64,000 nt of DNA, taken from Nocardiopsis listeri NBRC 13360. Its GTDB lineage: Bacteria > Actinomycetota > Actinomycetes > Streptosporangiales > Streptosporangiaceae. Positions 40,700 to 42,902 of this stretch are shown piece by piece. The stretch covers positions 1 through 64,000 of the forward strand of contig NZ_BCSH01000037.1 in assembly GCF_001570765.1 (NCBI RefSeq), in the 5' to 3' direction. A program made the position numbers and the translations under genes. Below the pieces are notes generated by a model, which did not search any database, had not been told where the DNA came from, and saw only the letters and a list, made by a program, of their open reading frames with translations. Numbering within the stretch: position 1 is the first letter of the stretch; every line of letters begins with the position of its first letter.

Positions 40700-41854
40700 G
40701 TGAGACTACGAGTGGATCGCGACGCGTTCGCGGAGGCGGTCTCCTGGACCGCGCGGGCGCTGCCCACCAGGCCGGCCGTACCGGTATTGGCCGGGATGCG
40801 CATGGAGGTCTCCGAGGACGGAACCACCCTTCATCTCTCCGGTTTCGACTACGAGGTCTCGACCAGGGCATCGGTGGAGGTCCTGTCGGAGGAACCCGGC
40901 GCGGTACTGGTACCGGGGCGTCTGCTGGCCGAGATCGTCAACAACCTGCCGTCCGGTTCCGTGCACATCGACACCGACGGCCCGAAGGTGAACGTGCGCG
41001 GAGGCGCCGCCCGCTTCACCCTCATCACCATGCCGCTGGAGGACTACCCCGGGCTTCCCGGAATGCCGGGAAGGATCGGCTCGGTGCCGGCCGACGCCTT
41101 CACCGCCGCGGTGCGTCAGGTGACCCCGGCGGCCGGCAAGGACGACACCCTGCCGATGCTGACCGGCGCCTACCTGGACTTCACGGGTGAGGCGCTGAAG
41201 ATCGTGGCCACCGACCGCTACCGGATCGCGGTCCGCGAACTGTGGTGGCGGCCGGAGGACCCCGGGGTGGACGTGTCCGCCCTGGTCCCCGCTCGTACCC
41301 TCGCCAACACCGTGCGTGGGCTGATCGGCCACTCCAACGTGGACATCGCCCTGTCCACGTACGCCGTGGCGGAGGGTGTCGACCTGTCACCGGGCGAGGG
41401 CATGATCGGCTTCGCCAACGGCGAGCGACACACCACCACTCGGCTGATCGACAGCGACTTCGTCAAGTACGCGTCCTGGTTCCCCACCGACTTCTCCGGG
41501 CGGGCCGAGGTCGCCGTGGGGCCGTTGCTGGAAGCGATCAAGCGGGTCGCTTTGGTGGCGGACCGAAACACGCCTCTGCGGCTGGCGTTCACGGAGGGTG
41601 AGGTCGTTCTGGAGGCCGGTTCGGGTGAGGACGCCCAGGCGGTGGAGGCCATCGGCGTGGGGTACGAGGGCGATCCCCTGAGGGTGGCCTTCAAGCCCGA
41701 CTACCTGGTCGACGGGCTCTCCGGGGTGGGCACCACCACCGCCTACCTCAACTTCACGGAACCGACGAAACCCGCGGTGTTCACCGACGTTCCGGCGAAG
41801 GAGGGCGAAGAGCCCTCGTTCCACTACTTGGTCCAGCCATTGCGTAGTACTTGA
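40700..41854 (+). CDS. DNA polymerase III beta clamp paralogue (second DnaN)
   Basis: This 384-residue protein has three tandem clamp domains: domain 1 VDRDAFAEAVSWTARALPTR with PAVPVLAGM; domain 2 LPMLTGAYLDFTGEALKIVA, ATDRYRIAVREL; domain 3 FVKYASWFPTDFSGRAEVAV, DRNTPLRLAF. It should form a dimeric sliding clamp. It lies away from dnaA-recF-gyrB, and the gyrase/tRNA-Ala neighbourhood suggests that the housekeeping dnaN sits upstream of this window. The C-terminus ends HYLVQPLRST rather than the usual YLLMPVR-type end, so the binding pocket may differ. The GTG start has AGAGGAGG 7 bases upstream. Role (accessory clamp, repair) is inference. Confidence 0.9.
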   Translation: MRLRVDRDAFAEAVSWTARALPTRPAVPVLAGMRMEVSEDGTTLHLSGFDYEVSTRASVEVLSEEPGAVLVPGRLLAEIVNNLPSGSVHIDTDGPKVNVRGGAARFTLITMPLEDYPGLPGMPGRIGSVPADAFTAAVRQVTPAAGKDDTLPMLTGAYLDFTGEALKIVATDRYRIAVRELWWRPEDPGVDVSALVPARTLANTVRGLIGHSNVDIALSTYAVAEGVDLSPGEGMIGFANGERHTTTRLIDSDFVKYASWFPTDFSGRAEVAVGPLLEAIKRVALVADRNTPLRLAFTEGEVVLEAGSGEDAQAVEAIGVGYEGDPLRVAFKPDYLVDGLSGVGTTTAYLNFTEPTKPAVFTDVPAKEGEEPSFHYLVQPLRST

Positions 41855-41881
41855 CCAGCGGATTCCCTGTTCTTGGGGAAA

Positions 41882-42051
41882 CCGTCCACAGGGCCGTCCA
41901 CAAGTTATCCACAGGCTGTCTCCCCAGCCTGTGGATAACCCGGGGTGATCGGTCGCGCAGAAGGGTCGAAGAGCCCTTTGAAACGGCCTGTTCTCCGCTG
42001 TGACAAGGGAAAACGGTGTTCCTGTGGAAACTGTGCACAGCCTGTGGACAA
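41882..42051. promoter_or_regulatory. Cluster of DnaA boxes in convergent gap
   Basis: The 211-bp gap between convergent dnaN-like and DUF2786 genes holds CCGTCCACA (41882-41890 and 41894-41902), TTATCCACA (41905-41913, 9/9), TGTGGATAA (41930-41938, 9/9 minus strand), TGTGGAAAC (42023-42031, 7/9) and TGTGGACAA (42043-42051, 9/9 to the actinobacterial TTGTCCACA form). The two perfect TTATCCACA boxes form the arms TTATCCACAGGCT/AGCCTGTGGATAA (41905-41917, 41926-41938), a 13-bp inverted repeat. It has no promoter to serve here, so it may titrate DnaA or act as a replication-related locus. Confidence 0.7.
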
Positions 42052-42065
42052 CTCCGCGTGAGTGG

Positions 42066-42902
42066 CTATTCGCCTTCGGCCAGAGTGGACGTTCCGCCAC
42101 TGGTCACCGGGGTGTCCAGGCCCAGTTCGGCCTGGCGTCCGCGGCGGTATCCGGCCCGGTACCCGGCGGCGCTGTGGGTGCGCTCGGGGCGGTGTTTACG
42201 CAACTGTGGGAACTGCTTTTGGAACTCTTCGTTCACCCGATGCACATCTTCGCGCAGGACCAGTGCCGCCCCACGGGCGGAACCGCTTTCGTCACCGTCG
42301 GTAACGCCATCGGAGTCGGTTTCGGACGCGGCCATTCTCTGCAATCGGGCGCGGAACTCTCGAATGCGTTCGGCCACCGCCTGCCCGTAGGCACGGACGA
42401 AGGAACGGTAGTAGCGTTTACGCTCCGTCTCCAAGGCCGACCGTGTGTAGTTGCGCAGTTCTCGAATGTCGGTGATGTGCGCCGAACTCATGAACCGGGC
42501 GGAGGCCTCCATCTGCATGGAGATCGAAGGCAACAACATCCGCAGCGCGTCCAGCGCGCTGGCGGTACCCACCAGGATGATGACGCGCTCGGTGTTCTCC
42601 GAGTTGTTCCCCCGGACCGCGGACTGGCACCCGTAGGCGGCGGCGATGTCGGCGAGAGCGCGCACCCGGGACTTGCCGTGACCGCCCGCCCCCGAAACGG
42701 CGTAGTCCATGCGGCTGATCGTGTCCGGTTCCTCGCCCCGCTCGGCGCGGGCCTCGGCCTCGGCGATCGCGTGGCGGGTCATCAGCTCGGCGGCCTTGGC
42801 GGTGAACGCCTGGCTCTCGGCATCGGTGACCGCGGGGTCCTCCGCCATGCGAAGGAGCCCGCGGACCCGCTCGACCATCTTCTGACGGGCAGCTTCAGTC
42901 AT
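42066..42902 (-). CDS. DUF2786 family protein
   Basis: A 278-residue protein with the N-terminal DUF2786 domain (about 1-45; RVRGLLRMAEDPAVTDAESQ, AFTAKAAELMTRHAIAEAEA). A middle domain (about 70-200) includes ADIAAAYGCQSAVRGNNSEN and ALRMLLPSISMQMEASARFM. A basic C-terminal region contains RSALETERKRYYRSFVRAYG and ends in a Ser/Thr-rich tail. DUF2786 proteins are widespread in actinobacteria and phages and have no firmly known function. It is convergent with the second dnaN across the DnaA-box cluster, which may or may not matter. There is no signal peptide or membrane helix. Confidence 0.85.
   Translation of the reverse strand: MTEAARQKMVERVRGLLRMAEDPAVTDAESQAFTAKAAELMTRHAIAEAEARAERGEEPDTISRMDYAVSGAGGHGKSRVRALADIAAAYGCQSAVRGNNSENTERVIILVGTASALDALRMLLPSISMQMEASARFMSSAHITDIRELRNYTRSALETERKRYYRSFVRAYGQAVAERIREFRARLQRMAASETDSDGVTDGDESGSARGAALVLREDVHRVNEEFQKQFPQLRKHRPERTHSAAGYRAGYRRGRQAELGLDTPVTSGGTSTLAEGE

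Follow-up and report, generated by a model that had tools for sequence, protein, structure and literature searches.

The closest described relatives of the locus reported here are chromosomal clusters of DnaA boxes outside oriC. In Escherichia coli, the datA locus is described as having essential boxes and an IHF site, with a spacing that matters (PMC4585315). The reactivating sites DARS1 and DARS2 are described as sharing a core of three boxes, one of them head to head, at 14 and 12 bp (PMC5742627), and the head-to-head pair is reported to be functionally essential (PMC10380432); the DARS1 core reads I(+)-14-II(-)-12-III(-). Clusters close to oriC of Bacillus subtilis are described as restraining untimely initiation (PMC4585315, citing Okumura et al. 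2012), and clusters near oriC of Streptomyces coelicolor as repressing it (PMC4585315 and PMC5742627, citing Smulczyk-Krawczyszyn et al. 2006).

The element analysed here is a cluster of DnaA boxes in the gap between two convergent genes of Nocardiopsis listeri. The window is the whole stretch of 64,000 nucleotides that was analysed (C37:1-64000), from a draft genome of 5.69 Mb. Judged by the DUF2786 protein next to the gap, the nearest named relative found is a Nocardiopsis listeri MAG (96%). Its relevant features (those of the window) are the following.

40700..41854, plus strand: dnaN2, a second sliding-clamp gene with a GTG start, its stop codon adjoining the gap
41855..42065, no strand: convergent gap with the element, GC 0.59 (whole window 0.68)
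41882..41890, plus strand: degenerate box CCGTCCACA, two mismatches
41894..41902, plus strand: box A, degenerate in this genome, CCGTCCACA, two mismatches
41904..41939, no strand: palindrome of boxes B and C with their flanks, 15-bp arms and a 6-nt loop
41905..41913, plus strand: box B, TTATCCACA, perfect
41930..41938, minus strand: box C, TTATCCACA, perfect
42001..42014, plus strand: block M, TGACAAGGGAAAAC, genus consensus TGACrTGcGAaAAC
42031..42040, no strand: small palindrome CTGTGCACAG ahead of box D, most of its columns well conserved
42043..42051, minus strand: box D, TTGTCCACA, perfect
42066..42902, minus strand: DUF2786 gene (PF10979), convergent with dnaN2, synteny kept in all 37 genus genomes

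The original prediction placed the boxes in a convergent gap adjoined by a second sliding-clamp gene, and both statements hold. The stop codons of dnaN2 and the DUF2786 gene lie at 41854 (+) and 42066 (-). A family search found three Pfam clamp domains and NCBIfam dnaN in DnaN2, which is 57% identical to the canonical DnaN of the same genome (C6:105487-106611, beside oriC). From family, PDB and alignment matches only, a function of DnaN2 as a RIDA partner is speculative.

Perfect TTRTCCACA boxes occur in the gap at 41905(+), 41930(-) and 42043(-), two of them as the arms of a palindrome and one on the minus strand, just as had been predicted. Five further 9-mers have two mismatches, two of which are a single palindrome, CTGTGCACA, scored on either strand. 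The earlier count of six or more boxes stands if two mismatches are allowed and fails otherwise, because there is no 9-mer with one mismatch. The predicted inverted repeat of 13 bp is present but longer, with arms of 15 bp (41904-41918 and 41925-41939) that are 100% complementary around a loop of 6. Neither the three perfect boxes in 211 bp nor the eight matches at up to two mismatches were equalled in any of 2000 Markov shuffles of the gap. Across the entire window, the gap among it, a 211-bp stretch averages 0.016 perfect boxes. With clusters left out of the genome rate, a Poisson calculation corrected for all windows of the genome gives about 2e-4, and the genome contains 98 perfect boxes compared to 37 matches to a backward-read control pattern. 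The cluster is far beyond chance.

We then compared the gap in 37 genomes of the genus, namely this one and 36 others; the G022 locus L068, a canonical-clamp fragment, was excluded. The order dnaN2-gap-DUF2786 is kept in all 37. At least three perfect boxes are found in 34 of the gaps, two in 2 gaps and one in 1. Box B is perfect in 33 genomes and TTTTCCACA in 4; box C is TTATCCACA in 32 and TTGTCCACA in 5; box D is perfect in 25 and TTTTCCACA in 12. Box A is perfect in 19 genomes, has one mismatch in 12 and is worse in 6, this genome among them. The spacing is 11-12 bp from A to B, either 24 or 25 bp from B to C (16 and 21 genomes, respectively), and 112-114 bp from C to D. Mean pairwise identity is 0.98 for box B, 0.97 for C, 0.93 for D and 0.51 for A, and outside the boxes it is 0.88 for the stretch ahead of D, 0.82 for block M and, over the other 151 columns, 0.49. 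Together the boxes B, C and D average 0.96, compared to 0.49 in the unannotated columns; random triplets of 9-mers, which may overlap the boxes themselves, equalled this value in 7 of 20000 draws. Loss of the boxes in relatives that keep the genes had been named as evidence against the prediction. It was not seen, because the boxes are retained in 37 of 37 genus genomes. The element is thus a real DnaA-box locus under selection.

Some loci deserve mention for other reasons. At L069 (G022:C60), DnaN2 is just 61-65% identical, while the gene beside it (85%) is normal, as are the boxes; this dnaN2 may have been replaced or be diverging fast. Loci L118 and L124, titled Glycomyces fuscus and Streptomonospora nanhaiensis, are of the Nocardiopsis type with dnaN2 at 81-83%, and their labels may be wrong or outdated.

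The locus is close to the origin. In the eight genus genomes with both genes on one contig, dnaN2 lies 98-173 kb from the dnaN of oriC (two of the eight values assume circularity), and in ten of ten sister genomes with a close orthologue (63-68%) the distance is 79-256 kb. In the N. listeri draft the two are on different contigs, so the nearness to oriC rests on the relatives. Clusters of at least three perfect boxes within 300 bp number four in this genome, the gap at 41855-42065 and three others.

G000:C6:67818-68022 (L071:5819-6023), no strand: cluster upstream of dnaB, its run of three or more perfect boxes at C6:67888-68022, the gene identified by family search
G000:C6:101776-102081, no strand: cluster of seven perfect boxes upstream of dnaA, listed as C6:101789-102081 in the count of clusters within 300 bp, the gene identified by family search
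C6:104531-105207, no strand: cluster of the dnaA-dnaN region (oriC), 10 perfect boxes

The seven-box cluster likely serves autoregulation of dnaA. The same picture is seen in G031, where oriC and dnaN2 are on one contig of 6.9 Mb. Among its 72 perfect boxes (a complete list), clusters of at least three within 300 bp are four only, at 3,413,396-3,581,682; this span of 168 kb contains 22 of the 72. Two of these clusters are oriC and dnaN2, and the other two were assigned to the regions upstream of dnaB and dnaA by spacing and place, not by gene search. We compared the dnaB-upstream cluster in 23 genus and 7 outgroup loci. Boxes are present in 23 of 23 genus loci; a perfect box at about (+)272 occurs in all 23, and one at about (-)169 in 22, with one mismatch in the remaining locus. 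A head-to-head pair at 14 bp with at most one mismatch is found in 21 of the 23, and the cluster has another (+)/(-) pair at 23 bp. A cluster of this type is absent from the 7 outgroup loci. Elsewhere in the window, positions 14-182 belong to a dispersed, imperfect repeat of about 170 bp that also occupies several other contig starts of this genome. The genome contains 31 matches to it, full or partial, and a DnaA box forms the end of several copies at contig starts; assembly breaks seem to fall at this repeat.

Between boxes C and D lies a 14-bp block, TGACnTGCGAAAAC, which we call block M. Its TGAC is kept in 36 of 37 genus gaps. A matrix was built from its 14 columns (42001-42014) in the 37 dnaN2 gaps alone, which hold 13 distinct sequences, and the oriC segments of 23 of the 37 genomes were scanned with it. 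In all 23, the top match is a TGACCTG-type site (scores 10.4-20.4), and 22 of them exceed 14.3, the top score in the window apart from the element; pieces of 1200 bp from the window have a mean maximum of 7.7 (sd 3.1). The oriC site is about 19 bp ahead of paired boxes that lead into CTACTAC, which we take to be the DnaA-trio. In the dnaB-upstream cluster, block M is found by pattern at about 206 in 20 of 23 genus loci, less uniformly than in oriC; the copy at that place is a near-match in L181 and L183 and degenerate in L177. Upstream of dnaA of this genome the best score is 9.1, within background, and in 30 segments scanned for the sister-genus clusters the best scores are 2.5-13.5, with no shared position seen and no convincing copy.

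The trio pattern occurs in 5 of 11 further oriC segments, with an M-like block ahead in each. By eye, a TGACC-type block stands ahead of a box in 7 of 20 segments at class or order level. The pattern TGASCTG-N9-14-box is matched in 33 of 197 genomes across the class and its reversed control in 2 of 197; the matches are not all in oriC, and most of the 197 genomes are without a match to this strict pattern. One combination of TGACCTGGGACAAC and a box lies outside oriC in the N. listeri genome (G000:C8:17324-17350). As to its identity, block M does not fit TTWTNCACA by eye on either strand and was rejected as a DnaA box. Compared by eye to the AdpA consensus as given in PMC4285127, it does not fit either. 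An MtrA site was likewise considered and tentatively set aside.

Because block M recurs in oriC and in the dnaB-upstream cluster, we propose a common accessory factor that, judging from the sequences, probably binds it at all three places. A wider proposal is tentative: block M (the TGACCTGCGAAAAC type) may be the site of an unrecognised actinobacterial origin factor, analogous in role to IHF or Fis, placed ahead of the unwinding boxes of oriC and at two satellite sites. Under this tentative proposal, a single DnaA control circuit could link oriC with the helicase gene and with the locus of the clamp paralogue, and the dnaN2 site would have a DARS-like core stretched by one helical turn.

We also examined sister-genus loci, defined as the 25 from other genera among the best 30 DUF2786 matches (DUF2786 67-74% identical). 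In 21 of the 25, at least two boxes (TTNTCCACA, where N is A, G or T) are found no more than 600 bp from the end of DUF2786. In the other four the boxes are farther off, still between dnaN2 and DUF2786, and one of these four (G112) has merely a pair, 21 bp apart. The arrangement is unlike that of the genus, consisting of direct boxes mostly 52-64 bp apart. Around dnaN2 homologues in eight more distant genomes no box cluster was found, and a single lone box in one of the eight. A search of family genomes found the exact palindrome TTATCCACAGG...CCTGTGGATAA in both of the 2 genus members and in none of the other 59; its sole occurrence in the N. listeri genome is the gap. At one sister-genus locus, L204, a PPOX-family gene starts about 170 bp downstream of the cluster. 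A transposase-like reading frame, recognised by eye, is present there (L204:2356-3348, in G080) between dnaN2 and the PPOX-family gene, outside the box cluster.

On balance, we consider it probable that the element is an origin-proximal, non-coding DnaA-assembly site of the datA-like or titration type, with titration or datA-like restraint as its likeliest role. The element has a fixed box spacing and a conserved non-box block, which IHF or an analogue may bind. The function suggested by the original prediction, titration, would fit the place near the origin, the conservation and a gap that in this genus is bounded by gene ends only. DnaA would occupy B, C and D, which are the strong boxes, as well as A in genomes with an intact copy. 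Two DnaA molecules on B and C would stand in head-to-head orientation at a distance of about 2.3 helical turns, and a protein that also binds oriC might sit on block M and draw the two ends of the element together. Lying about 100-170 kb from oriC, the element would be duplicated soon after initiation, and the duplicated element could absorb DnaA or alter its nucleotide state so that oriC does not refire immediately. The binding of DnaA, the accessory protein, the effect on initiation and the sign of that effect are all things we infer. Titration by 3-4 boxes against the 98 perfect boxes of the genome could have a small effect.

The original prediction also named a DARS-like role. Boxes A, B and C would then form a DARS core where ADP-DnaA pairs up as a head-to-head dimer and sheds its ADP, raising active DnaA. 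The orientations agree: the opposite strand reads C(+)-24/25-B(-)-11/12-A(-), as in E. coli DARS1, and wherever box A has at most one mismatch (31 of 37 genomes), C is opposed to both B and A. The II-III spacing is about equal, the head-to-head gap is longer by about one helical turn, and the 14-bp pair upstream of dnaB shows that the genus has such a spacing elsewhere. However, the key 14-bp step between boxes I and II is seen in 0 of 37 gaps, all of which have 24 or 25 bp, and 6 of the 37 genomes, N. listeri included, carry a box A with more than one mismatch. Moreover, oriC of the same genome contains a box module with the 25- and 12-bp steps; the geometry is therefore not specific to reactivation. 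Membership of the DARS class is ruled out on spacing (24-25 bp versus 14), and because of this missing step and the shared geometry we do not file the element as a DARS. A DARS-like reactivating role is unlikely in our estimate.

The element might instead serve chiefly to terminate transcription arriving from either convergent gene, and the DnaA boxes in its palindrome would then be incidental. The convergent gap and the perfect 15-bp stem would suit this function, as would a folding z-score of -4.0 for 41840-42000 and the covariation of inner pair 3, which is Watson-Crick in 72% of cases compared to 40% with partners swapped between genomes. Inner pairs 4-6, however, are hardly above the swapped controls, and no intrinsic terminator with a G+C-rich stem followed by a T-tract was found in 41600-42400. 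A terminator would also not account for block M or for box D, which lie as far as 114 bp away, and the same 25-bp box pair lies inside oriC. We regard a mainly terminating role as improbable and rank it after the DARS-like one; it is possible that the element is both a terminator and a DnaA site. Less probable again is an anchor for organisation or segregation of the origin region, in which a complex of DnaA and the accessory factor would bridge the element to oriC. The sharing of block M among oriC, the dnaB cluster and the element is consistent with such a bridge, as is the 168-kb span that contains the corresponding box clusters of G031.

Regulation of neighbouring genes by DnaA is very unlikely. 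The earlier claim that the boxes cannot regulate a nearby promoter stands within the genus, where gene ends alone face the gap in 37 of 37 genomes, and no sigma-70-like promoter was found in 41600-42400. It does not extend to the one sister-genus locus read, L204, where the cluster precedes the PPOX-family gene. A secondary replication origin, also raised by the original prediction, can be dismissed almost entirely: the box module and block M do resemble oriC, but the element is not a spare origin because it has no DnaA-trio (CTACTA/TAGTAG in 0 of 37 gaps versus CTACTAC in 23 of 23 oriC segments), most gaps hold 3-4 perfect boxes versus 10 in oriC of this genome, and the gap is less AT-rich, its lowest 20-bp GC being 0.45 versus 0.30 in the oriC segment.

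To our knowledge, restraint of the initiator between rounds is poorly known outside the relatives of E. coli and Bacillus. The element is a compact locus of about 170 bp, found genus-wide and cleanly deletable without touching a known promoter, and block M ties it to oriC and the dnaB region. Two questions therefore become testable, namely whether actinobacteria use chromosomal sites for DnaA control, and which protein acts as IHF at their origins. Our search of titles and the starts of abstracts, which covered few subscription papers, turned up no description that we recognised of the dnaN2-gap locus.

Set beside the known systems, the element shares its module of boxes at 25 and 12 bp and block M with oriC of its own genome, which differs in having 10 perfect boxes and a DnaA-trio. 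With DARS1 and DARS2 it has in common a three-box core with one box opposite and 12 bp (11-12 bp in the element) between boxes of the same orientation; their head-to-head spacing is 14 bp and that of the element 24-25 bp, and the gene context differs. As far as descriptions allow, it resembles the B. subtilis clusters in lying near oriC. The S. coelicolor clusters, again compared by description only, are likewise actinobacterial, outside oriC and close to it. The clamp paralogue alongside and block M belong to the element and go unmentioned in the descriptions of the S. coelicolor clusters we compared. The earlier statement that no actinobacterial counterpart had been described thus needs to be divided: the kind is already known from datA and from the Bacillus and Streptomyces clusters as described, while the place, the architecture and the shared block appear to be new. 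Finally, datA has an IHF site and the element has block M, not identified as an IHF site; as datA is described in PMC4585315, both are non-coding box clusters with a set spacing plus an extra block.
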